Of a stretch of 64,000 bases of DNA, positions 8,250 through 45,824 are shown piece by piece. The position numbers and the translations under genes are program-made. A model generated the notes under the pieces. The model had not been told where the DNA came from. It searched no databases and saw only the letters and a list, made by a program, of their open reading frames with translations. The stretch is from Candidatus Didemnitutus sp. GTDB taxonomy: Bacteria; Verrucomicrobiota; Verrucomicrobiia; Opitutales; Opitutaceae. The DNA is taken from NCBI GenBank assembly GCA_019634575.1, contig JAHCAY010000001.1:372001-436000 (forward strand). The letters are read 5' to 3'. How positions within the stretch are numbered: the first letter of the stretch is position 1; each line of letters starts with the position of its first letter.

Positions 8250-9245
8250 CTATTTGCGGTCGCCGTAGCCTTTGGGCCGGGCTTGATGCCAGCGCCACGC
8301 CGTCGCCACGATCGGGTCGATGTGCGTGTATTTCGGCGTCCATCCGAGCTCGGTTTTCGCCTTGGTGGCGTCGGCGTAGAGCGCCGGCGGATCGCCGGCA
8401 CGACGCGGCGCATAGCTCACCGGAACCTTGAGACCGCTGACCTTTTCGACGGCTTTGATGACCTCGAGGACCGAAGTCGGCGTGCCGGTGCCGAGATTGT
8501 AGAAGAGTTGCGTGCCGGGCGCGCCGAGTTTGTCGAAGGCCGCGATGTGCGCGCGGGCGAGATCGTCGACATGGACGTAGTCGCGCAGGCAGGTGCCGTC
8601 CGGCGTCGGATAGTCGGTGCCGAAAACCTGCAGGGCAGGGCGGAGACCCTGCGCGGCACCAATCGCGACGGGGATCAAATGCGTTTCCGGATCGTGGTCC
8701 TCGCCGATCACGCCGTCCTCGGAGGCGCCGGCCGCGTTGAAGTAGCGGAACGCGGCAAAACTCAGACCATGGGAGCGCGCGAGCGCCTTGAGCAGATTCT
8801 CCAAGTCGAGCTTGGTCTGGCCATAGGGATTGATCGGCGCCTGCGGCAGGTCCTCGGTGATCGGCATCCGCTGCGGGATGCCGTAGGTGGCGCAGGTCGA
8901 GGAGAAGACGAATTTCCGCACACCGCGCTTGAGCATCGTCTCCAGCAGCGTGAGCGGGGCGGCGACGTTGTTGCGGTAATACTTGATCGGGTCGGTGACG
9001 GATTCGCCGACGTAGCAGTAGGCGGCGAAGTGCATCACGAGGTCGATCGCATGCGCGTCGAACACGCGCCCGATCGCGGCGGCGTCGCCGAAATCGACGT
9101 CGTAGAACGGCACGTCCGGTGCGACCGCCGTGCGGTGGCCGTAGACGAGATTGTCGATGACGACGGGTTGATGGCCGGCGGCTTGGAGCTGGCGCACGCA
9201 GTGACTGCCGATGTAGCCGGCGCCGCCGGCAACGAGGACTTTCAT
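8250..9245 (-). CDS. galE: UDP-glucose 4-epimerase
   Basis: A 331-residue extended short-chain dehydrogenase that interconverts UDP-glucose and UDP-galactose. The N-terminal GGAGYIGSH is the NAD-binding glycine motif (residues 7-15), the catalytic Ser/Thr-Tyr-Lys set appears in VFSSTCATYG and NPYGQTKLDLE (Tyr and Lys separated by three residues), and the C-terminus has the GWTPKY signature. The ATG at 9245 puts the glycine motif at the expected distance; in-frame upstream extension would run into the region before fabF. It supplies activated sugars for lipopolysaccharide or exopolysaccharide. Divergent from the lipid cluster. Confidence 0.95.
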   Translation of the reverse strand: MKVLVAGGAGYIGSHCVRQLQAAGHQPVVIDNLVYGHRTAVAPDVPFYDVDFGDAAAIGRVFDAHAIDLVMHFAAYCYVGESVTDPIKYYRNNVAAPLTLLETMLKRGVRKFVFSSTCATYGIPQRMPITEDLPQAPINPYGQTKLDLENLLKALARSHGLSFAAFRYFNAAGASEDGVIGEDHDPETHLIPVAIGAAQGLRPALQVFGTDYPTPDGTCLRDYVHVDDLARAHIAAFDKLGAPGTQLFYNLGTGTPTSVLEVIKAVEKVSGLKVPVSYAPRRAGDPPALYADATKAKTELGWTPKYTHIDPIVATAWRWHQARPKGYGDRK

Positions 9246-9318
9246 GGGGAGGCGAGTTTCTATTGGGTTTGCATTTCCGGTGGCTAGGCAATTCCGTGTC
9301 CATTTTCCCGCCCGCCAC

Positions 9319-10557
9319 ATGAAGCAAACCCGCATCGTCATCACCGGAGTCGGCCTCACCGCACCGAACGGCAATACGTTGGCCGAGTTTCGCCAGAACC
9401 TGCTGCAAGGCGTTTCCGGCATCACGACCGTCGACGTCCGCTACATGGGACGCTGGCCCGCGGGCATGTGCACGTTCGACCCGCTGAAGTATCAGAAGAA
9501 AAAGGACGTCCGTATCGGCACGCGCGCCGGCAGCATCAGCGTGTATTGCGCGCGCGAGGCGCTGGCTGACGCCGGCGTGAATCTCGACACGCGCGACAAG
9601 AGCCGCGTCGGCATCTACGTCGGCATCACCGAGCACGGCAACGTCGAGACCGAGAACGAGGTCTACAACATCTCGCAGTTCAAATACGACACGAAGTTCT
9701 GGACGCACCACCACAACCCGAGGACCGTGGCCAACAATCCGGCGGGCGAAGTGTCGCTCAATCTCGGTATCACCGGCCCCGCCTACACGATCGGCGCCGC
9801 CTGCGCCGCGGGCAACATGGGCCTGATCCACGCTGCGCAGATGCTGCGCCTCGGCGAGGTGGACATCGCCATCGCCGGCGGCATCAGCGAGAGCCCGCAG
9901 ACCTTCGGCATCTTTGCCGGGTTCAAGAGCCAGAACGCGCTCGCCGCGCACTCCGACCCCACGAAAGCCAGCCGCCCCTTCGACAAGGCCCGCAACGGTA
10001 TCGTCATCTCCGAAGGCGGCTGCCTTTACACCATCGAACGCCTCGAAGACGCGCAGGCGCGTGGCGCGAAAATTTACGGCGAGATCGCCGGCTATTGCGT
10101 CAACTCCGACGCGACCGACTACGTGTTGCCCAACCCCGAACGCCAGGCCGAGTGCGTCCGCAAGGCCCTCGCGAACGCCGGGATGACCGTCGACGACATC
10201 GACATCGTGAACACCCACGCGACCTCGACGCCCCAAGGCGACATCCAAGAGTGTCAGGCGATCGCCGCCGTGTTCAAGGACCGCAAGGAACCCGTCGCGA
10301 TCAACAACACCAAGAGCTTCATCGGCCACTGCATGGGCGCGGCCGGCGCGCTCGAGCTGGCCGGCAACCTGCCCAGCTTCGACGACCTCGTCGTCCACCC
10401 GACGATCAATGTCGATGAGCTTGATCCCCAGTGTGATATCCCGGGCCTCGTGCTCAACAAGCCGCGGGCGGTTAAACGGGTTGACGCCATCCTGAATAAT
10501 TCCTTCGGTATGCTCGGAATTAATTCCACGCTCATCATCAAGCGATTTACCGACTGA
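9319..10557 (+). CDS. Beta-ketoacyl-ACP synthase II-like (KAS I/II)
   Basis: A 412-residue condensing enzyme, first gene of the lipid cluster. The catalytic cysteine is Cys162 in GAACAAGNMG, with His300 (NTHATSTPQGD), Lys332 and His337 (KSFIGHCMGAAG) completing the Cys-His-His set, so it should decarboxylate malonyl-ACP and condense it with an acyl chain. It differs from housekeeping FabF in details: an inserted segment rich in His and Asn (KFWTHHHNPRT, residues about 126-136) and GHCMGAAG in place of GHTLGAAG. The ATG at 9319 matches the usual N-terminus (VVITGVGLTAP type); the longer open frame starts inside the galE promoter region. An ACP gene follows by 17 bases. Confidence 0.93.
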   Translation: MKQTRIVITGVGLTAPNGNTLAEFRQNLLQGVSGITTVDVRYMGRWPAGMCTFDPLKYQKKKDVRIGTRAGSISVYCAREALADAGVNLDTRDKSRVGIYVGITEHGNVETENEVYNISQFKYDTKFWTHHHNPRTVANNPAGEVSLNLGITGPAYTIGAACAAGNMGLIHAAQMLRLGEVDIAIAGGISESPQTFGIFAGFKSQNALAAHSDPTKASRPFDKARNGIVISEGGCLYTIERLEDAQARGAKIYGEIAGYCVNSDATDYVLPNPERQAECVRKALANAGMTVDDIDIVNTHATSTPQGDIQECQAIAAVFKDRKEPVAINNTKSFIGHCMGAAGALELAGNLPSFDDLVVHPTINVDELDPQCDIPGLVLNKPRAVKRVDAILNNSFGMLGINSTLIIKRFTD

Positions 10558-10574
10558 TCTCACCTCCGCACACC

Positions 10575-10829
10575 ATGACGAAAGACGCCTGCAAGAAGCT
10601 GGTTATCGACATCATCTCCGACATCGCTCCTGACGAGGACCTCACGGCTATCAAGCCCGACGTCCGCCTGCGCGACCAGCTCCAGCTCGATTCCATGGAC
10701 TTCCTCGACATCGTCATGGAGCTCCGCAAGCGCCACGGCATCGAGGTTCCCGAGGCCGACTACATGCAGCTCGCCTCGCTCGACAGCTGCGCCGAATACC
10801 TGACCCCCAAGTTCCAGGCCAAGGCCTAA
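10575..10829 (+). CDS. Acyl carrier protein
   Basis: An 84-residue acidic helical protein. Ser40 in LQLDSMDFLDIV is the phosphopantetheine attachment site (DSMD in place of the common DSLD). The four-helix pattern and length are normal for a type II fatty acid or polyketide ACP. It lies directly after the KAS II gene and is presumably charged with the intermediates handled by the dehydratase and reductase encoded downstream. The Met after Ser, seen in specialised rather than housekeeping ACPs, suggests a dedicated carrier. Confidence 0.95.
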   Translation: MTKDACKKLVIDIISDIAPDEDLTAIKPDVRLRDQLQLDSMDFLDIVMELRKRHGIEVPEADYMQLASLDSCAEYLTPKFQAKA

Positions 10830-10855
10830 CCGTCAGCGCTCGGTTTCAATTTGTA

Positions 10856-10883
10856 GGGCGGGGTCTCCGACCCCGCCTTTTTC
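10856..10883 (+). terminator. Hairpin with T-run after the ACP gene
   Basis: A 9-bp perfect stem (GGCGGGGTC/GACCCCGCC) around a TCC loop, followed by TTTTT. It has the form of an intrinsic terminator but sits inside the co-directional lipid cluster, so it may attenuate rather than end transcription. The same GTAGGGCGGGGTC phrase may belong to a dispersed repeat family. Confidence 0.65.
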
Positions 10884-10900
10884 TTTGCGCAACCCCGCTT

Positions 10901-10998
10901 TGAACCACAGATGAACACAGATCGACCCAGATGCCGGACGGGCGTTTGCAAAACGAGCCCGGTCTATCTGTGTGAATCTGTGTCCATCTGTGGTTCCT
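10901..10998. repeat. Inverted repeat of GAACCACAGATG type
   Basis: The left arm begins TGAACCACAGATGAACACAG at 10901 and the right arm ends in its near-complement (ATCTGTGGTTC) by 10996, with imperfect ACAGAT-unit repeats within each arm. The arms span about 35 bases and enclose about 25 bases. The element fills the gap between the ACP gene and the first oxidoreductase gene. Confidence 0.6.
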
Positions 10999-11011
10999 CT
11001 TCTGTCTTGAG

Positions 11012-12445
11012 ATGAAGTCATCGCACTACGACGCCGTCATCATTGGCGCCGGCATGTCCGGCCTGGCCGCCGGCATCCGCCTCGCGCACTTCGGCAAACG
11101 CGTCTGCATCTTCGAGCGCCACAACGCCCCCGGCGGTCTGAACAGCTTCTACAGCATCGCCGGGCGCAAGTTCGACGTCGGCCTGCACGCGATGACCAAC
11201 TTCGTGCCGCCCGGCGTCAAAGGCACGCCGCTCACGAAGCTCCTGCGCCAGCTCCGCATCGACCGCGACGAGTTCGCCCTTTGCCCGCAAAAGCAGTCGA
11301 AAATCGCCTTCGGCTCGCGCGGCGAGACGACGCTGCGCTTCACCAACGACTTTGCCGTGCTCGACGCCGAAGTGCGCGAGAAATTCCCGCATGAGGCGGC
11401 CGGGTGGGGCGCCTTGGTTCAACTCGTCCGCACCTACGACGACGTCTCGCTCGACGCGCAGCCGCGTTCCGCGCGCGAAGTCGTCGCTCAGCACCTCCGC
11501 GACCCGCTGCTCACCGATATGATTTTCTGCCCGGTGATGTATTACGGCAGCGCGCAGGAGCGAGACATGGAGTTCGGGCAGTTCGTGATCATGTTCAAGG
11601 CGCTCTACCTCGAAGGCTTCGCCCGGCCGCTCGATGGCGTGCGCGTGATCATCCGTGTGCTGCTGGAAAAATTCCGCCAAGCCGGCGGCGAGCGCCGGAT
11701 GAAATGCGGTGTCGCGCGCATCGTCGAACGTGACGGCCGCGCCGCGACGCTCGTGCTCGACGACGGCACCGAGATCACCGCCGACCACGTGATCTCGTCC
11801 GCCGGTTACCCGGAAACGATGCGCCTCTGCGAACCCGCACACACCGCCGAAGCCGACGCGAACACCGGCCAGCTCTCTTACGCTGAGACGATTTCCGTGT
11901 TCAAATCCGCGCCGGCGACTTGGGGGTGGGGCGACGACACGATCATTTTCTTCAACGACTCGCCACGCTTCGCCTACGAGCGTGCCAGCGAGCCGGTCGA
12001 CCTGCGCAGCGGTGTGATCTGCTTTCCGAACAACTTCGCCTATCCCGACGGCGCGGATTTGCCCGAGGGCCTCGTGCGCGTGACCTGCCTCGCGAACTTC
12101 GATCGCTGGGCAAATTTGCCCGAGGAAATCTATCAGACCGAGAAACGACACTGGTTCGATGCGATCCAGCGCAGCGCGCGGCGCTTCCTGCCACCGGTCG
12201 ACGATGCCACACTCGCCGCGAACCTGCTCACGACCGACATGTTCACGCCGCGCACCGTGAAAAAATTCACCGGCCACCTGAACGGCGCGATCTACGGCGC
12301 CCCGCGCAAAATCCGCGACGGCCGCACTCATCTCTCGAATCTCTATCTCTGCGGCACCGACCAGGGCTTTTTAGGCATCATCGGCGCCATGCTCAGCGGC
12401 ATCTCGATGGCGAATTACCACGTGCTGCAGGGAAACGCGAAGTAG
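11012..12445 (+). CDS. FAD-dependent oxidoreductase, phytoene desaturase/RetSat-like (first of two)
   Basis: A 477-residue protein with the dinucleotide-binding motif GAGMSGLAAGIRLAHFGKRV at residues 11-30, followed by the FERHNAPGGLNSFY segment, and a C-terminal FAD segment (LYLCGTDQGFLGIIGAMLSG) as in CrtI, CrtISO and retinol saturase. Family members desaturate, saturate or isomerise conjugated polyene chains. No phytoene synthase or prenyl synthase gene is near, and the surrounding genes are fatty-acid-type, so an acyl chain is a more likely substrate than a carotenoid (inference). Start ATG at 11012 places the glycine motif normally. It is only distantly similar to its neighbour at 12643. 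Confidence 0.85.
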   Translation: MKSSHYDAVIIGAGMSGLAAGIRLAHFGKRVCIFERHNAPGGLNSFYSIAGRKFDVGLHAMTNFVPPGVKGTPLTKLLRQLRIDRDEFALCPQKQSKIAFGSRGETTLRFTNDFAVLDAEVREKFPHEAAGWGALVQLVRTYDDVSLDAQPRSAREVVAQHLRDPLLTDMIFCPVMYYGSAQERDMEFGQFVIMFKALYLEGFARPLDGVRVIIRVLLEKFRQAGGERRMKCGVARIVERDGRAATLVLDDGTEITADHVISSAGYPETMRLCEPAHTAEADANTGQLSYAETISVFKSAPATWGWGDDTIIFFNDSPRFAYERASEPVDLRSGVICFPNNFAYPDGADLPEGLVRVTCLANFDRWANLPEEIYQTEKRHWFDAIQRSARRFLPPVDDATLAANLLTTDMFTPRTVKKFTGHLNGAIYGAPRKIRDGRTHLSNLYLCGTDQGFLGIIGAMLSGISMANYHVLQGNAK

Positions 12446-12480
12446 GATCAGCGTCGCCGGCCGAGTTACTCCTCGCTTAA

Positions 12481-12566
12481 GGTGGTCGCCGCTGTCGCCA
12501 GCGGCCACAAGGAGCATCTCAGCGGTAACAACGTTCGTGTCGCCGGTAGGGACACCGGCGACCACC
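12481..12566. repeat. Inverted REP-like palindrome pair between the two oxidoreductase genes
   Basis: Outer arms GGTGGTCGCCG (12481-12491) and CGGCGACCACC (12556-12566) are perfectly complementary. Each arm holds its own smaller palindrome, for example GTCGCCGGTAGGGACACCGG on the right. It fills most of the 197-base gap between the two oxidoreductase genes; nothing else is recognisable there. Confidence 0.65.
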
Positions 12567-12642
12567 TCGAATACCGTCGCGTCCGTCGCCTCAACTTCCC
12601 GGTTGCCCTGCCTCCGCGCGCACTCTTAGTTCGGGCGCTTTC

Positions 12643-14082
12643 ATGGCCTACGACTGGCTCAAAGGAACCCACGATCACTACGACGTCATCGTCATCGGCA
12701 GCGGCCTCGGCGGCCTGACCGGCGCCAATGTGCTGGCCAAGTGCGGCCACAAAGTCCTGCTGCTCGAGCACCACTACCAACTCGGCGGCCTCGCGACCTG
12801 GTTCACCCGCAAGGGCGGACACATCTTCGACATCTCGCTGCACGGCTTCCCGCACGGCATGATCAAATCCTGCCGCAAGTATTGGAGCCAGGACATCGCC
12901 GACGCCATCGTGCAACTCAAGGGTGTGCGGTTCATCAACCCGCAGTTCCAGATCGACACGACGTTCGACCGCGATGACTTCACGCGTCAGCTAGTCGAAA
13001 AATTCAATATCCCCGCCGAGACCGTGGAGAAATTCTTCACCGATCTCCGCGCGATGAATTTCTACGACAACAACACCGAGACGACGGGGCAAATGTTCGA
13101 GCGTTACTTCCCGGGTCGCGACGATGTGAAGCGCCTCCTCATGGAGCCGATCGCCTACGCCAACGGTTCCACGATGGACGATCCGGCAATCACCTTCGGC
13201 ATCGTGTTCTCGAACTTCATGAGCAAGGGCGTCTTCACGTTCCAAGGCGGCACGGATGTCCTGATCAAGCGCATGGCCGAGGAGCTGAAGAAAAACGGCG
13301 TCGAGATTCGCAAACACGTGCTCGTCGAAAAAATTCTCACTGAGGAAGTCGACGGCCGGAAACGTGTCTGCGGCGTCGTCGCCAACGGCAAAACCATCCG
13401 CTGCGGCGCCGTGCTCTCGAATTCGAACGTCAAGAACACCGTCCTGCGAATGGCGGGCGAGGAGAGCTTCACGCCCGAGTTCGTCGCCGCGACCAAGGCC
13501 GTGCGCGTCAACAGCAGCTCCTGCCAGGTCTACCTCGGCATCAAGAAGGGCGAGACGCTCCCGCACATCGGCGACCTCGTGTTCACCTCCGACGAGCCGA
13601 AGTTCTCGAGCGAGGCCCTCGTCGACCTGCACACGACGAGTCGCACGTTCTCCATGTATTACCCGGACACGCGGCCCGGCACCGACCGTTACACCGTCGT
13701 CGTATCGATCAACGCGCGCTATCAGGATTGGCAGGGCATGTCCGACGAGGACTACGCGAAGCACAAGGAGCGCCTTATCGAGGAATCACTTGCTTCGCTC
13801 GAGCGTTTCATCCCCGACATCCGCGGCAAGGTTGAGTGGAAGGAAGCCGCGACGCCGCGCACCGTGGAATACTACACGAAACACTGGCACGGCACGTCGT
13901 TCGGCACGAAGTTCGAGGGTTTGAAAATTTCGATGGACCTGCCGATGCAATTGCCCGGCCTCTACCACGCCGGCTCGGTCGGCATCATCATGTCGGGCTG
14001 GCTCGGCACCATCAACTACGGCGTGATCGTCGCGAACCAGATCGACAAGGCCCTCGCCGCGGCGAAGCGCACCGCCGCCTGA
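12643..14082 (+). CDS. FAD-dependent oxidoreductase, CrtI/CrtISO/RetSat-like (second of two)
   Basis: A 479-residue protein with [20 protein letters not shown] as the FAD-binding motif at residues 20-39, then [13 protein letters not shown], and the C-terminal FAD segment [22 protein letters not shown]. The middle carries many aromatic residues. Its overall shape is that of the all-trans-retinol saturase/carotene isomerase branch. Paired with the gene at 11012, it suggests two sequential or complementary redox or isomerisation steps on a carrier-bound or free acyl chain. The FabZ-like gene follows after 7 bases, so translation is probably coupled. The substrate is not deducible from the sequence. 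Confidence 0.86.
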
Positions 14083-14089
14083 TTTTCCC

Positions 14090-14542
14090 GTGAACGAAGT
14101 CGAGCAACTCATCCCGCACCGTCCGCCGTTCCTGTTCGTCGACGCGATCGTCTCCCACGAAGGCGAGACGCTCGTCGCCCGCCGCACCTGGCGCGCCGAG
14201 GAGGATTTCTACCGCGGCCACTATCCCGGCGCGCCGATCACGCCCGGCGTGCTGCTCAGCGAGGCCGTCTTCCAGACCGGCGCCTGCCTCATGGCGAAGC
14301 TCATGGCCGGCGCGGCCGGGCAGGGCGGCGGCGTGCCGTTGCTTTCCAAGGTCTCCGACATCCGCTTCCGCCTGCCGGTCTATCCCGGCGACACCGTCAC
14401 CATCGAGGTGAAGCGCAAGGAAACGGTCGGCGAGTTCCACTTTCTCACGGGCGTGATGAAGACGCCGGAAGGCAAGAAGGTCATGAACGTCGACTTTGCC
14501 GTCGCGTGGAAGAAGCCCGAGGGCCAGGTCACGACCGCATGA
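14090..14542 (+). CDS. FabZ-like 3-hydroxyacyl-ACP dehydratase
   Basis: A 150-residue single hot-dog-fold protein. The N-terminal IPHRPPFLFVD and the HYPGAPITPGVLLSEA motif with His44 and Glu58 match the FabZ active site, which removes water from (3R)-hydroxyacyl-ACP to give the trans-2-enoyl chain (and in some FabA/Z enzymes isomerises it). The start is GTG at 14090, 7 bases after the preceding stop. The stop codon overlaps the ATG of the FabI-like gene by 4 bases. The glycine-rich loop near residue 80 is longer than in housekeeping FabZ. Confidence 0.92.
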   Translation: MNEVEQLIPHRPPFLFVDAIVSHEGETLVARRTWRAEEDFYRGHYPGAPITPGVLLSEAVFQTGACLMAKLMAGAAGQGGGVPLLSKVSDIRFRLPVYPGDTVTIEVKRKETVGEFHFLTGVMKTPEGKKVMNVDFAVAWKKPEGQVTTA

Positions 14543-15351
14543 ACGACTTCCTCCAGGTCGCCGGAAAGACCTTCCTCGTCCAGGGCGTCGCCAACAAGAA
14601 GAGCGTCGCGTGGCTGATCGCCAAGTCGCTCGAGGAGCAGGGCGCCCGCGTCGTCTACGCCGTCCGCTCCGAGGCGCGCCGGAAATCGCTCGAGGCGCTG
14701 CTGGCCGACCGTCCGGTTTTCCTTTGCGACGTCGAGCAGGACGGCGCCTGCGAGCGCCTCGCCGCCGAGGTCGCCGCCGCGGGCTTCGCGCCGCTGCACG
14801 GCGTCGTGCATTCGATCGCGTTCGCCAACTACAGCGAGGGCTTCAAGACCTTCGCCGAGACGAAGCGCGGCGACTTCCTCCAGGCGACCGCCATCTCCGC
14901 CTTCTCGCTTGTCGAGCTGACACGCGCCTTCAAGCCGCACCTCGCGAAGGACGCCTCGATCGTCACCATCGGCATCTCGTCGCTGCTCGTGACGCCCGAC
15001 AACTACGGCTACATGGGGCCGATCAAGGCCGCGCTCGATTCCTGCGCGCGGTTCCTCGCCAAATCGCTCAGTGCCGACACCGCCATCCGCGTCAACGTCC
15101 TCGGCAGCGGCCCGCTCAAGACCAGCGCCTCGGCCGGCATCCCCGGCTACCTCGAAAGTTACCTTTACGCGGAGAAAATGACCTTCCGCAAACGCGCGCT
15201 TGAGACGCAAGAGGTGGCGAACGCGGCGCTTTTCCTCCTCAGTCCGCGCAGCAGCGGCGTGAACGGCACGACACTCGTCGTCGACGCCGGTCTCGGCTCG
15301 AACTATTTCGACAAGGACATCATCCGCCTCGCCATGCGGCCGGAGAAGTAA
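14539..15351 (+). CDS. FabI-like enoyl-ACP reductase (SDR)
   Basis: A 270-residue short-chain dehydrogenase with FabI-specific features: GVANKKSVAWLIAK near residue 17 (nucleotide binding), HSIAFA near 91, and the Tyr156-x6-Lys163 pair in YGYMGPIK, then GPLKTSAS near 195. It should reduce trans-2-enoyl-ACP with NAD(P)H. The position aligning with Tyr146 of E. coli FabI is Ile146, a change next to the active site. The ATG at 14539 overlaps the dehydratase stop (ATGA); an in-frame upstream codon would overlap further and is rejected. An OleA-like gene follows after 3 bases. Confidence 0.9.
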   Translation: MNDFLQVAGKTFLVQGVANKKSVAWLIAKSLEEQGARVVYAVRSEARRKSLEALLADRPVFLCDVEQDGACERLAAEVAAAGFAPLHGVVHSIAFANYSEGFKTFAETKRGDFLQATAISAFSLVELTRAFKPHLAKDASIVTIGISSLLVTPDNYGYMGPIKAALDSCARFLAKSLSADTAIRVNVLGSGPLKTSASAGIPGYLESYLYAEKMTFRKRALETQEVANAALFLLSPRSSGVNGTTLVVDAGLGSNYFDKDIIRLAMRPEK

Positions 15352-15354
15352 GCG

Positions 15355-16392
15355 ATGCGCTTCCGTCACGCCTGCATCGAGTCCATCGCCGCCGTCGAGC
15401 CGGAGGAAATCTGGTCGTCCGCCGACATCGAGGCGCGTCTGCGCCCGATGTATGAGCGCCTGCGCCTGCCGGAAGGGCGCCTCGAGTTGATGTCCGGCAT
15501 TCGCGAGCGACGCATGTGGTCCGCCGGCACGCGGCCCTCAGACGCGAGCGCCGCTGCGGGGCGCAAGCTGCTCGGCATTTCGCGGATTCCCGCCGCGAAA
15601 CTCCAGGTGCTGATGCACAGCGCCGTCTGCCGCGACATGCTCGAGCCGGCCACGGCGACGTTCGTGCACCACAAGATGGGCCTCGGCGGTGGCATGCAGG
15701 TCTTCGACGTGTCGAACGCCTGCCTCGGTTTCCTCAACGGTCTCGTTCTGCTCGGCGGCATGATCGACGCCGGCCAGATCCGCGCCGGCATCGTCGTCTC
15801 CGGCGAAAACGGCCGCCCGCTGGTCGAGCGCACGATCCAGCACCTGCTCGCCGCCAACCTCGACCGCAACGCCATCAAGCCGTTCTTCGCCAACCTCACC
15901 ATCGGTTCCGCCGCGGTGGCCGCAGTCGTCTGTCACGAGGACGAGCTGCCCGCCGGGGCGCCCCGGCATCGCCTCGTCGCCGGAGCCGCGCTGGCCGACA
16001 CGACCCACAGCGACCTCTGCCAGGGCGACAGCGCCGGCGACGGCCTCGCGATGGAGACGGACTCCGAGCAATTGCTCATCGCCGGCATCGACGTCGCGCG
16101 CCGCACCTGGGGCGAATTCAAGCAGGAGAGCGGTTGGGACGAGGCGACGCCCGACCGCTTTATCTGTCACCAAGTCGGGAGCGCGCACCGCCGCAAGCTT
16201 TACGAGACGCTCAGCCTTGATCTCGCGAAGGACTTTTCGTCGTTCGAGACGCTCGGTAACACCGGATCCGCCGCGCTGCCGACGACACTCGCGCGCGCCA
16301 TGGAGCAGGGCGCCGTGCGCGCCGGCCAGAAGGTGGCACTCCTCGGCATCGGCAGCGGCATCAACAGCCTCATGCTCGCTCTCGAATGGTGA
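15355..16392 (+). CDS. KAS III / OleA-like thiolase-fold condensing enzyme
   Basis: A 345-residue thiolase-superfamily enzyme. Catalytic residues are Cys123 (DVSNACLGFLNGL), His in FICHQVGSAHRRKL near residue 270, and Asn in ETLGNTGSAALP near 301. The segment HSAVCRDMLEPATATFVHHK resembles OleA, which condenses two fatty acyl-CoAs head to head, more than housekeeping FabH. A role in joining two chains, or in priming the cluster's chain, is possible; the first is favoured by the OleB-like gene that overlaps its 3' end by 7 bases. The start ATG at 15355 is 3 bases after the reductase stop. Confidence 0.88.
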   Translation: MRFRHACIESIAAVEPEEIWSSADIEARLRPMYERLRLPEGRLELMSGIRERRMWSAGTRPSDASAAAGRKLLGISRIPAAKLQVLMHSAVCRDMLEPATATFVHHKMGLGGGMQVFDVSNACLGFLNGLVLLGGMIDAGQIRAGIVVSGENGRPLVERTIQHLLAANLDRNAIKPFFANLTIGSAAVAAVVCHEDELPAGAPRHRLVAGAALADTTHSDLCQGDSAGDGLAMETDSEQLLIAGIDVARRTWGEFKQESGWDEATPDRFICHQVGSAHRRKLYETLSLDLAKDFSSFETLGNTGSAALPTTLARAMEQGAVRAGQKVALLGIGSGINSLMLALEW

Positions 16393-17288
16393 TGACGCCC
16401 GCCGCCCAACTCCCGGACTGGCTGCGAAAGCTGTATCCCTTCGCGCCGCAGCGTTTCGTGACGCCCGCTGGCGCGCTCAGCTATCTCGACGAGGGGCCGC
16501 GCAGCGACGAAGCCGTCGTGATGGTGCACGGCAATCCAACGTGGTCGTTTTTCTATCGCGACGTCGTCCTCGCGCTGCGCGGTCAGATGCGCTGCATCGT
16601 GCCGGACCACATCGGCTGCGGACTCAGCGACAAACCGCAACGGTGGGACTACACGCTGCCCAATCACGTCGCGAATCTCCGTGCACTGCTCGATTCGCTG
16701 CAGCTTCGGAAAATCCATCTCGTGGTGCACGACTGGGGAGGCCCGATCGGACTCGGCGCGCTGTTGCCGCAGCCGGAGAAGCTCGGCCGCGTCGTCATTC
16801 TCAACACCGCCGCCTTCGCCGACGCCGTGGTCCCGTGGCGCATCCGTCTCTGCCGGGCACCGCTCCTTGGGGAGTTGATCGTCCGCGGCGGCAACGGCTT
16901 TGCCTGGCCCGCGACATGGATGGCGGTTTCAAAACCGCTGCCGGCCGACGTGAAACGCGGTTTCCTGTTTCCCTACGATTCCTGGGCGACCCGGATCGCG
17001 ACGCACCGGTTCGTCGTCGACATCCCGAGCGGGCGGGGCACCGCGTCGGATCGCGCGCTTGCCGACATCGAGCGGCGCCTGCCGCTGCTGCGCGAGCGCG
17101 ACGTTGCAGTGCTGTGGGGCGCAGACGATTTCTGTTTCAATCTGCATTATTTCACCCGCTGGCGCGAATTCCTCCCGCAGGCGCGCCACATGCTGCTCAA
17201 GGGCGTCGGTCACTACCTGATTGAGGACGGTGGAAGCACAGTCGTGCAAGGCATCGCTGCCCAAATCACGGGAATGCTATTGGGCTGA
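16386..17288 (+). CDS. Alpha/beta hydrolase, haloalkane dehalogenase/OleB-like
   Basis: A 300-residue alpha/beta hydrolase. The oxyanion segment HGNPTWSFFYR is at residues 49-59, the nucleophile Asp116 is in VVHDWGGPIGLG, and the catalytic His is in GVGHYLIEDGG near 279. An Asp rather than Ser nucleophile defines the haloalkane dehalogenase and OleB group; OleB decarboxylates beta-lactones to olefins. Adjacent to an OleA-like gene this fits a hydrocarbon or ketone pathway, but OleC (AMP ligase) and OleD (reductase) are absent here. Start at 16386 or the ATG 6 bases later are equally plausible. Last gene of the cluster. Confidence 0.85.
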   Translation: MVMTPAAQLPDWLRKLYPFAPQRFVTPAGALSYLDEGPRSDEAVVMVHGNPTWSFFYRDVVLALRGQMRCIVPDHIGCGLSDKPQRWDYTLPNHVANLRALLDSLQLRKIHLVVHDWGGPIGLGALLPQPEKLGRVVILNTAAFADAVVPWRIRLCRAPLLGELIVRGGNGFAWPATWMAVSKPLPADVKRGFLFPYDSWATRIATHRFVVDIPSGRGTASDRALADIERRLPLLRERDVAVLWGADDFCFNLHYFTRWREFLPQARHMLLKGVGHYLIEDGGSTVVQGIAAQITGMLLG

Positions 17289-31580: not shown

Positions 31581-32768
31581 ATGGAAAAAGACCAACAGCC
31601 CGACGCCCCCGCGTCGCAGGCTTCCGAACAGAATCCGGCCGCGCAACCCCCGCAACAGCCGGACAACTCAATTCGCGTCGAAGGCATCCTCGACCTCGAC
31701 AACAGCCGCAACGGCCAGCTGCTCGACCTCTCGCGCTTCGGCAAGCGGCGTCCGACCGACCCGTTCGTGCCGCGTGAGCTGATCCGCCGCTTCAAGCTCG
31801 GCCAGGGCTCGATGATCACCGCTCAGGCGACACCCGATCAGCGCTTCCCCAATCCGAAGGTCCGCTTCATTGAAAAGGTCGACGGCATGGACCTCGAGGC
31901 GCGTCGCCGCGTCGTCGAGTTCGCCAATCTCCTCACGATCACGCCCAACGAGCACCTCAAGCTCGAGCTGAAGGACGGCCGCATGACCACCCGCGTCGTC
32001 GACCTCTTCTGCCCCATCGGCAAGGGCACGCGCGGCCTCATCGTCGCCCCGCCACGCACCGGCAAGACGACCTTTCTCCGCGACATGGCGCTGGGCGTCC
32101 TTGAGAATCACCCCGAGTGCCACGTCATGATCCTCCTCGTCGACGAGCGTCCCGAGGAAGTCACTGACTTCAAGCGCAGCGTCCCAGCCGAAGTCTGGGC
32201 GTCGTCCAACGACGAGTCCGTCGAGAACCACATCCGCATTGCCGAGCTCTGCATCGAACGCGCCAAGCGCCTCGTCGAAGCCGGCAAGGACGTCGTGCTC
32301 TTCGTCGACTCCCTCACCCGCCTCTCCCGCGCCTACAACACCCAGCGCAACTCCGGCCGCACCGGCTCGGGCGGCTTGGATGTCCGCGCGCTGGAGAAAC
32401 CGCGCCAGCTCTTCGCCTCCGCCCGCAACACCGAAGACGGCGGCTCACTCACCATCATCGCCTCCATTCTCGTCGAAACCGGCTCGCGCATGGACGACGT
32501 GATTTTCCAGGAATTCAAGGGCACCGGCAACATGGAGCTCGTCCTCGACCGCAAGGCCGCCGAGATGCGCATCTGGCCCGCCGTGAACGTCCAATCCTCC
32601 GGCACACGAAAGGAAGAGCTTCTCCTCGACGCCAAGAACCTCGAAGGCATCCACTTCTTCCGCCGCGCGCTCGTCCAGCAAAAGATCGAGGAAGCCACCG
32701 ACACGATGGTCACTCGCCTTTCGAAGACGAAGAACAACGCGGAATTCCTCAAGCTCATCGCCCGGTAA
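31581..32768 (+). CDS. Short, atypical Rho transcription termination factor
   Basis: A 395-residue RecA-fold RNA helicase-translocase of the Rho family. Walker A APPRTGKT is at 156-163, Walker B LFVD near 241, Q-loop GSGGLDVRALEKPR near 262 and R-loop GTGNMEL near 315. The N-terminus is a 30-residue Gln/Pro-rich tail followed directly by an OB-like region; the usual helical Rho_N domain is missing, and the primary RNA-binding segment GFGF is replaced by GQLLDLSRF. Thus the motor is intact while RNA loading is probably altered. A second rho gene lies at 43878-45824. Confidence 0.9.
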   Translation: MEKDQQPDAPASQASEQNPAAQPPQQPDNSIRVEGILDLDNSRNGQLLDLSRFGKRRPTDPFVPRELIRRFKLGQGSMITAQATPDQRFPNPKVRFIEKVDGMDLEARRRVVEFANLLTITPNEHLKLELKDGRMTTRVVDLFCPIGKGTRGLIVAPPRTGKTTFLRDMALGVLENHPECHVMILLVDERPEEVTDFKRSVPAEVWASSNDESVENHIRIAELCIERAKRLVEAGKDVVLFVDSLTRLSRAYNTQRNSGRTGSGGLDVRALEKPRQLFASARNTEDGGSLTIIASILVETGSRMDDVIFQEFKGTGNMELVLDRKAAEMRIWPAVNVQSSGTRKEELLLDAKNLEGIHFFRRALVQQKIEEATDTMVTRLSKTKNNAEFLKLIAR

Positions 32769-43877: not shown

Positions 43878-45824
43878 TCAGCGATTCAAGCTCATCAGGA
43901 ACTCGGCGTTGGTCTTCGTCTTCTTGAGGCGCTGGATGAGCATCTCGATCGAGTCGGCGGCGGGCACGCCTTGCATGGCGCGGCGCAGCGAGTAGATGCG
44001 CGCGAGCTCGTCCGGGTGATAGATGAGCTCTTCCTTGCGCGTGCCGGATTTGTCGATGTTGAGCGCGGGGAAGATGCGTTTGTTGACGAGATCGCGGTCG
44101 AGGTGGAGCTCCATGTTGCCGGTGCCCTTGAACTCCTCGAAGATGATCTCGTCCATGCGCGAACCGGTGTCGACGAGCGCGGTGCCGAGAATCGTGAGCG
44201 AGCCGGCACCCTCGATGTTGCGCGCGGAGCCGAAGAAGCGTTTCGGCTTCTGCAGCGCCGTGGCCTCGAGACCGCCGGACATGATTTTGCCGGAGTTCGA
44301 CGCGAGCGCGTTGTAGGCGCGCGCGAGGCGCGTGATCGAATCGAGCAGGATGACGACGTGTTCGCCGTGCTCCACGAGGCGGCGCGCCTTCTCGATCACC
44401 ATCTCGGCGCAGTGCACGTGGTTCTCGGGCGTCTCGTCGAAAGTCGAGCTGACGACCTCGCCTTTGCAGTGGCGGCGGAAATCGGTGACTTCCTCGGGGC
44501 GCTCGTCGATGAGCAGAATGATGAGCTTCGCCTCGGGCGAGTTTGCCGCGATCGAGTTCGCCATGTTCTGCATCAGGACGGTCTTGCCGGTGCGCGGCGG
44601 CGCGACGATCAAGCCGCGCTGACCGAAGCCGACGGGCGTGATGATGTCGACCATGCGCATCGAAACGTCCTTCGCGGTCTGCGACTCAAGCCAGATGCGT
44701 TGGAGCGGATAATACGGAGTGAGCTCCTCGAAGGGCTTGATCGCCGAAATATCCTCGGGTTTCCCGCCCATGACCTTGCGGATGCGCACGACACTCGGGC
44801 AACGGTCGTTGCCCTGCGGCGCCTGGACCTGCACCTCGACGTGGTGGCCGCGCTTGAGGCCGAGCTTCTTCACGAAGCCGTCCGGCAGGAACGAGTTTTC
44901 CGGATACAGCCGGTAGTTGACGAAATCGTGGACGACGAAGCCGAAGCCGCGATCCGTGAGATCGATCCAGCCTTGGTCGAGCAACGGAATCTTCTGCTCG
45001 GCCGCAGCCACGAAGACCGCGCTGAGCAGCTGTTTGCGGTTCGGCACGCCTTCGAGCTTCGCGCCGAGCTCGCGGGCTTTCGCAGTCAACTCGGCGTGGC
45101 CGAGCGCGTAGAGTTCGTTGATCCAGAGCGGATCGGTTTTCTTCGCCGCGATATCGTCCGCCAGCGTGTCGAGCGCGGCGAGGTCGGCGAAGCGCGCCGG
45201 ATCGGGCAGCTCGCCGTAATAAATTTCTCCCTTCGGCGGGGGCGGTTGCTGCGGATGCTTGGGCTGGCCGCCGTTGCCGCCGCCCTGTCCGCCACCACCG
45301 CGGTGCTTTTCCCATTTGCCGCCACGGAATTTCTTGTCGCGCCAGCGGTTGAACTTTCCGCCGCCGCCACCTCCGCCTTGCTGCTGACCGCCTTGCTGGT
45401 CGCCGTTGTAGCCTTCGTTGCCGCCACCGCCGCCGTCAGCGGGCGCTGGCGCAGGTGCCGGGCTGGCACCCGCATCGCTTCCGCCCGTCGGCGCAGGAGC
45501 AGCATCGGCCGAAGGCGGAGTCTCGCGCGCGGCCTCCTTTGCTGCGGGACGCTCTTCGGCGCGCTCGCGGCGTTCCGGCGCGGGTGCCGGCGGCGGTTCC
45601 TCGCGGCGCGATTCAGCCGCGAACTCGGTTTGCACCGGCGCGGGAGCGGGAGCAGATTTCTCCGCTGTCGGGGCCGCCGGAGCTTCACCGGCGTCGGCGC
45701 TGGCGTTCGCACCTTTCTTCGAGCGATAGAGGCGCGAACGGGTGCGCGTGCGTTTCTTGGGAGCTTCGCCGCTTTCGGGCGCGGAGCTGGGAGTGTCCTC
45801 GTCGGACTTCGGGGGAAGGGCCAT
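43878..45824 (-). CDS. rho: Rho transcription termination factor with long Gly-rich arm
   Basis: A 648-residue Rho. Residues 1-200 are disordered: Ala/Pro/Glu-rich, with basic RTRTRSR and RGG-type stretches and a Gly-rich segment ([20 protein letters not shown]). Then come a Rho_N-like helical part, the cold-shock-like RNA domain ([14 protein letters not shown] near 291), and the ATPase: Walker A APPRTGKT at 408-415, [15 protein letters not shown] near 434, and Q-loop [12 protein letters not shown]. This is the canonical Rho of the two and presumably terminates most transcripts. It follows coaE after 14 bases on the same strand. Confidence 0.95.

Follow-up and report, generated by a model that had tools for sequence, protein, structure and literature searches.

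Gene Content and Layout of the Locus

The window analysed here, a stretch of 64,000 nucleotides from Candidatus Didemnitutus sp. (Opitutaceae; GenBank assembly GCA_019634575.1, contig JAHCAY010000001.1, positions 372,001 to 436,000), lies within contig C1 of a 5.25 Mb genome that is 99.9% complete. It carries a cluster of eight genes for KAS II, ACP, two flavoproteins of the CrtI/CrtISO superfamily (FAD1 and FAD2), a FabZ-type dehydratase, a FabI-type reductase, OleA and an OleB-like hydrolase (Table 1). A preliminary description of the sequence had listed these eight genes, and the family assignments, the motifs and the coding-type GC distribution over codon positions, seen in all eight on the + strand, confirm that they are real, intact and rightly named. 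All of them are read in one direction with KAS II starting at 9319, as described there.

Table 1. Features of the eight-gene cluster, with positions counted from the first nucleotide of the window.
Feature	Position	Strand	Evidence
KAS II, FabF-like, dedicated clade, NNSFGMLGIN gate loop	9319..10557	+	Profile match, motifs, orthologue survey
ACP, DSM phosphopantetheine site	10575..10829	+	PF00550
Hairpin resembling a terminator, with 11 pairs and a T-rich tail, lying between ACP and FAD1	10855..10879	+	Consensus match only
FAD1, CrtI/CrtISO-superfamily flavoprotein	11012..12445	+	PF01593; model pLDDT (predicted local distance difference test) 90.8; nearest solved structure 4rep
FAD2, flavoprotein of the CrtI/CrtISO superfamily; identity to FAD1, 25%	12643..14082	+	
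FabZ-type 3-hydroxyacyl-ACP dehydratase	14090..14542	+	Pfam/NCBIfam match, motif
FabI-type enoyl reductase	14539..15351	+	Start taken at ATGA overlap; reading frame open from 14506
OleA thiolase (head-to-head condensation)	15355..16392	+	NF006720 over cut-off; OleA structures including 3row matched with 204 bits
OleB-like alpha/beta hydrolase, haloalkane-dehalogenase group	16386..17288	+	Adjoins OleA in loci of both phyla

The last four genes had been described as overlapping or nearly so; the tight packing was confirmed, and the block in fact comprises five genes, including FAD2 (FAD2-FabZ-FabI-OleA-OleB, with successive spacings of 7 bases, an ATGA overlap, 3 bases and −7 bases). The most likely start of FabI is at 14539, in the ATGA that overlaps the stop of FabZ. 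Upstream of this block, KAS II and ACP are 17 bases apart, ACP is followed by the hairpin with a T-rich tail, and FAD1 is flanked by gaps of 182 and 197 bases. Because of the terminator-like hairpin and these two gaps, a single eight-gene operon is unsupported; judged from the sequence, three transcripts are as likely as one.

Families were assigned by Pfam and NCBIfam profiles, and the bit scores were compared with the curated cut-offs. OleA matches NF006720 with 429 bits (cut-off, 285), and its nearest named loci are those of Candidatus Didemnitutus, Opitutus and other metagenome-assembled genomes (MAGs) of Opitutia, with 73–93% identity. Scores below the cut-offs were obtained for KAS II (TIGR03150, 325 bits; cut-off, 494), FabZ (92–94 bits), the FabI-type short-chain dehydrogenase/reductase (best score, 176 bits) and the OleB-like hydrolase (below every cut-off among its matches). 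FAD1 and FAD2 both belong to PF01593, show the fold of the CrtISO/CrtI superfamily with an FAD-binding N-terminus, and have the carotenoid isomerase model TIGR02730 as the best NCBIfam match (82 and 101 bits for the two flavoproteins, below the cut-off of 587).

The active-site residues of the fatty acid synthase (FAS)-type enzymes, reported as present in the preliminary description, are indeed in place: the Cys/His/Lys-His of KAS II, the DSM of ACP, the His/Glu of FabZ and the Y-x6-K of FabI. The same is true of the Cys/His/Asn/Glu of OleA, viewed in alignment to PDB 3row, and the HDWGG of OleB; we take all of these motifs to have their usual catalytic meanings. The 3row structure and the other matched structures presumably represent Xanthomonas OleA. 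The gate loop of KAS II is kept in all of the 42 orthologues read (NNSFG in 40 and NSSFG in two).

Ole Pathway and Supply Genes in the Host Genome

The genome search yielded a single OleC match above the cut-off (649 bits; cut-off, 478). The gene after it encodes an OleD-like reductase (PF01073, 161 bits; NF042422, 339 bits, below the cut-off of 580), and the two lie together 2.6 Mb from the eight-gene cluster. Thus, the genome holds oleA, oleB, oleC and oleD, in two places. Since OleA and OleB of the cluster make up the first half of an OleABCD pathway that is complete in this genome, a known polyene type is more likely as the product than the undescribed compound suggested in the preliminary description, while the hydrocarbon nature proposed there is likely. 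No PfaA above the cut-off was found in the host genome (best TIGR02813 score, 113 bits; cut-off, 1010), and the cluster, which has FabZ, contains no FabA-like isomerase.

The earlier suggestion of a resemblance to ladderane gene sets holds as far as gene content is concerned, which is like that of the clusters described in Rattray 2009 (PMC2649909). The link is indirect, because neither the cluster nor the scanned flanks contain any radical SAM genes, and no methylase genes were found there. It is therefore very improbable that a polyunsaturated chain made by the cluster serves ladderane-like lipids and not a hydrocarbon: similar kinds of genes do occur in the Kuenenia clusters (PMC2649909, PMC4790861), but OleABCD is present here and is co-inherited. 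The scan of the flanks likewise gave no carotenoid genes (a genome-wide search for phytoene synthase was not made), in agreement with the earlier statement that a carotenoid is an unlikely product.

Distribution in Verrucomicrobiota

In total, 288 Verrucomicrobiota genomes, the same set for all four queries, were searched for KAS II (orthologue threshold, E ≤ 1e-100), FAD1, FAD2 and OleA. KAS II and FAD1 were each found in 78 genomes, FAD2 in 76, and OleA in 77 (in 76 above the family cut-off). All four are present in 70 of the 83 genomes of the union, with pairwise phi of 0.92–0.97, and KAS II occurs in 75 of the 77 OleA-positive genomes. No weight is placed on a p-value for the co-occurrence, because shared ancestry would inflate it. 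Some sources name relatives of FAD2 phytoene dehydrogenase or retinol reductase, as would suit a carotenoid or other isoprenoid pathway with the FAS genes nearby by accident. This reading is extremely improbable and was dropped, given the co-occurrence of KAS II, FAD1, FAD2 and OleA over the 288 genomes and the co-location of 11 genes in a second phylum.

Regions were fetched for 60 of the 75 other genomes with FAD2. Within the same family, 14 of the 23 fetched regions contain the eight genes complete, ordered as in the host and within 20 kb, and the remaining ones have either the FAD2-FabZ-FabI-OleA-OleB block or FAD2 apart. Among 17 regions taken from other families in the same order, 5 keep the block, as do none of the 20 from other verrucomicrobial classes, in which no Ole gene lies near FAD2; two further regions show FAD1-ACP-KAS II divergent from OleA. 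The co-occurrence persists even where the genes are not adjacent, and the genes are therefore kept together in genomes despite drifting apart on the chromosome. The preliminary description had proposed a search for synteny and held that scattering of the genes in relatives, with no conserved neighbourhood, would count against the cluster. The neighbourhood turned out to be conserved in Opitutaceae and, rearranged, in the second phylum; the other verrucomicrobial classes sampled do scatter the genes, yet the co-occurrence holds.

The genomes that break the pattern have OleA only (G046 and G126, both with Pfa), FAD1 only (G150 and G269) or FAD2 only (G235), or are without OleA (G108, G185 and G284), FAD1 (G205 and G218) or FAD2 (G167, G221 and G263). 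Seven of the eight genomes in which one gene, OleA, FAD1 or FAD2, is missing are fragmented assemblies of 260 to 1030 contigs. The relatives of FAD1 include proteins of Lentisphaera profundi and L. marina and, at about 50% identity, those of MAGs named Chloroflexi, Wallbacteria, Deltaproteobacteria and Planctomycetota (P0267, P0268, P0291 and P0354). For FAD2, a relative with 85% identity is present in the cultured Oleiharenicola lentus. No plasmid carriers of FAD2 were found at E ≤ 1e-40, and an uninformative search of viral contigs gave no relative.

The Locus in a Second Phylum

A MAG of Bacteriovoracaceae, a family that we take to belong to the phylum Bdellovibrionota, has matches to KAS II (66%), ACP (72%), FAD1 (43%), OleA, OleB, OleC and OleD in a row, and to FAD2 (60%) on a separate contig. 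Among 240 sampled genomes of this phylum, FAD2 (E ≤ 1e-80) was found in 62, OleA in 67 and both in 58; KAS II and FAD1 were searched in fetched regions only. FAD2 and OleA share a contig in 40 of the 58 genomes, 3.5–19 kb apart, and 20 of these loci, chosen to fit within 20 kb, were fetched. All 20 contain KAS II-ACP-FAD1-OleA-OleB-OleC-OleD as one run (KAS II is cut by the region edge in some), and beside it FAD2-(gene)-FabZ-FabI, where the gene between FAD2 and FabZ encodes a FabG-type ketoreductase in every region (Pfam for two). The two runs face each other in 19 of the 20 regions and are on one strand throughout in L159 (G338), while in L172 FAD1 and OleC are each split into two pieces. 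By its predicted products, the locus of the second phylum is a full type II cycle (ketosynthase, ACP, ketoreductase, dehydratase and enoyl reductase) with two flavoproteins and OleABCD.

In quick trees, the FAD1 proteins of the second phylum fall on one side of a branch, and the same was observed for FAD2, a placement that fits either old co-inheritance or few transfers. A verrucomicrobial genome of a distant class also has a FabG-type reductase (51% to the FabG-type gene of this locus), placed about 8 kb away from FAD2 (L121, 695-1429).

Alternation with Pfa and Types of OleA

PfaA was examined in all of the 77 OleA-positive Verrucomicrobiota (the host, 63 and 13 genomes). Pfa above the cut-off was found in two, G046 and G126, which are exactly the two OleA-positive genomes without KAS II, FAD1 and FAD2. 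In G046 (L136, 6064-14080), OleA is located 4 bases downstream of a Pfa-type polyketide synthase frame that scores 279 and 317 bits to PfaA, alone below the cut-off, with the above-cut-off frame 3 bases on; OleB–D gave no match within the fetched 20 kb. In G126, OleA and Pfa are on separate contigs. In the second phylum, 63 of the 67 OleA-positive genomes were examined (54 with and nine without FAD2; G466, G472, G506 and G508 were left out), and a single one, G479, which is without FAD2, exceeded the PfaA cut-off; the region around its OleA has oleABCD and no KAS II or FAD1.

Among the other second-phylum genomes with OleA and without FAD2, G475, G510 and G525 have ACP-FAD1 beside OleA on short contigs (two also with KAS II), the region of G330 is cut short, and G291, G300, G323 and G335 have plain oleABCD: Pfa and FAD2 are missing, and neither KAS II nor FAD1 lies near OleA. 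The last four genomes (L176, L177, L178 and L180) are 1.3–2.0 Mb in size and have a divergent OleA.

In an alternative reading, the set of KAS II, ACP, FabZ, FabI and the two flavoproteins supplies OleABCD with an unusual chain that is not polyunsaturated but, for example, monounsaturated, conjugated or branched, so that another olefin results. OleABCD takes varied chains, and supply by an ordinary type II fatty acid synthase (FASII), as known from Xanthomonas and Stenotrophomonas (PMC6463001), would fit the plain oleABCD genomes. This alternative is nevertheless decidedly unlikely, as Pfa is the only replacement of the set seen in Verrucomicrobiota, and two flavoproteins beyond a full FASII would be left unexplained.

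An OleA tree was made from 61 chosen rows by a quick method. The set-linked (51), Pfa-linked (3), plain (4) and actinobacterial (3) proteins were each found on one side of a branch, and the Pfa-linked OleA from two phyla group together. Judged from this tree, OleA groups by supply system and not by phylum.

Proposed Pathway

The best reading of these data is that the set stands in for Pfa and feeds OleABCD. Together with OleABCD, it is probably a dedicated type II, oxygen-independent polyunsaturated acyl synthase, predicted to lead to a polyene hydrocarbon of the C31:9 kind; the dedicated type II synthase of the preliminary description is supported. In such a pathway, KAS II and ACP would elongate the chain, and FabG (for the host cluster, presumably a housekeeping copy) and FabZ would give trans-2-enoyl-ACP. 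This intermediate would meet three fates in repeating order, namely reduction by FabI, a shift to cis-3 by one flavoprotein, and conversion to cis-2 by the other. From an acetyl start, the order reduce/cis-3/cis-2/reduce/cis-3/cis-2/reduce would lead to exactly 16:4(4,7,10,13), the acyl chain needed for C31:9 (hentriacontanonaene). The flavin step would involve no net redox change, with FAD in the reduced form as in CRTISO, and would therefore need no oxygen. The polyunsaturated acyl-ACP would then be handed to OleA, which would condense two chains head to head, and OleD, OleC and OleB would finish the alkene.

The same pathway and product could also involve FAD1 and FAD2 as true desaturases, oxidising the formed acyl-ACP stepwise with a quinone as the acceptor, as proposed for anammox and Desulfotalea in Rattray 2009 (PMC2649909). 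The superfamily includes phytoene desaturases, the solved structures nearest to both flavoproteins are carotenoid desaturases (4rep) rather than isomerases, and with FAD2 the CrtD desaturase model (98 bits) is nearly tied with TIGR02730 as the best match. Against this, such enzymes are noted to have more difficulty in placing the first double bond into a saturated lipid (PMC2649909), the dedicated FabZ, FabI and ketoreductase would become redundant, and the best NCBIfam match of both flavoproteins is, weakly, an isomerase model. Desaturases in this role thus appear rather unlikely.

In addition to the CrtD score and the desaturase structures, several points weigh against a polyene made with two flavin isomerases. 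OleABCD also acts on ordinary chains, which are possible in the plain oleABCD genomes (four of the nine second-phylum genomes with OleA and without FAD2), and the tie to measured C31:9 is an analogy drawn through literature on other organisms. No ketoreductase, malonyl transacylase or phosphopantetheinyl transferase was found among the eight genes. The co-occurrence partly reflects shared ancestry, and the either/or pattern comes from three Pfa genomes, two of them in one family, amounting to about two independent events. Two genomes also depart from the expected pattern. In G131 (L139, G131:C68), the set is accompanied by a Pfa-like frame that scores 607 bits, below the cut-off, which makes this genome a possible double carrier. 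G108 (99% complete, 6 contigs) has KAS II, ACP, FAD1 and FAD2 and no OleA match at E ≤ 1e-60; its OleA has either diverged or been lost, and matches to OleC and OleD are found near FAD2 (L103, L193).

Other Genes

A gene for an NAD-dependent epimerase/dehydratase (8250-9425, − strand) is divergent from KAS II, and the + strand open reading frame at 8283-9287 is probably its antisense shadow. The PF00006 ATPase domain is found in two separate genes of the window: the product of 43878-45824 also has a Rho RNA-binding domain and looks like Rho, and that of 31581-32768 may be another ring ATPase. Elsewhere, G000:C1:1699377-1700135 (L003) encodes a third KAS, whose gate reads GFGG; a weak FabZ-like match (27%) adjoins it, and this locus may be one more specialised cluster for a lipid or polyene.

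Comparison with Known Systems

According to the literature, Kuenenia and Desulfotalea have FASII clusters that include radical SAM genes and genes resembling phytoene dehydrogenase; C31:8 and C31:9 were found in D. psychrophila, and an anaerobic FASII route to polyunsaturated fatty acids (PUFA) was proposed (Rattray 2009, PMC2649909). D. psychrophila has C31:9 without a known PUFA synthase, and that work could offer candidate clusters only. Kuste3336/3607 gave no lycopene in E. coli (Javidpour 2016, PMC4790861), a result that speaks only against a carotenoid role. Links of pfa-like clusters to ole genes were described by Shulse and Allen 2011 (PMC3098273), and Verrucomicrobia were among the olefin producers used by Sukovich (stated in PMC7158056). 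These two works, Rattray 2009 and Shulse and Allen 2011, and a review of C31:9 are the nearest literature; no paper linking CrtI-like/FASII clusters with ole genes was among the matches listed, in a search that excluded subscription papers and preprints. Within the literature covered, the ole linkage of the discrete set, the full composition in the second phylum and the replacement by Pfa appear to be new.

The anaerobic FASII route to PUFA was thus already proposed in 2009, and what is added here is a sharper, testable gene set: a minimal set tied to OleABCD is named, cultured carriers such as Oleiharenicola lentus, Lentisphaera profundi and L. marina are indicated, and one enzyme per isomerisation step is predicted. 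If the polyene reading is true, the 2009 proposal becomes directly testable, and a polyunsaturated synthase that works without oxygen and consists of small separate enzymes would be easier than Pfa to dissect and engineer. More tentatively, and with somewhat more doubt than confidence, the set may represent a third way for bacteria to obtain polyunsaturated chains, alongside Pfa and oxygen-dependent desaturases. It would then be a free-standing type II synthase with two flavin isomerases in the place of FabA-like isomerase domains, would have spread over at least two phyla as an interchangeable supply cassette for OleABCD, and would be the likely root of the C31:9 chemistry of D. psychrophila and perhaps of ladderane precursors.

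By description, the cluster is like the FASII clusters of D. psychrophila and Kuenenia in bringing together FabF, ACP, FabZ and CrtI-like genes; those clusters differ in also containing genes for radical SAM enzymes, ligases and membrane proteins, and the parts of Rattray 2009 drawn on mention no ole genes for them. FAD1 and FAD2 share the fold and superfamily of CRTISO, CrtI and the P. acnes fatty-acid isomerase, with about 10–20% identity to the solved members among those listed. As in the Pfa plus OleABCD systems of Shewanella and Geobacter bemidjiensis, the proposed role is the supply of 16:4 for C31:9, with a physical link to oleA. In contrast to Pfa, the enzymes are discrete type II proteins and flavoproteins and not a type I megasynthase, FabZ takes its place in the cluster without a FabA-like isomerase, and Pfa above the cut-off was not found together with this KAS II in the 77 OleA-positive Verrucomicrobiota. 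Similar to the OleABCD pathway of Shewanella, Xanthomonas and Micrococcus, the host has OleA and OleB in the cluster and OleC and OleD in a second locus, and OleA–D adjoin in the second phylum. Unlike that pathway, the genes are linked to a dedicated KAS II-ACP-FabZ-FabI set with two flavoproteins, and the set-linked OleA forms a branch of its own among the 61 rows compared.

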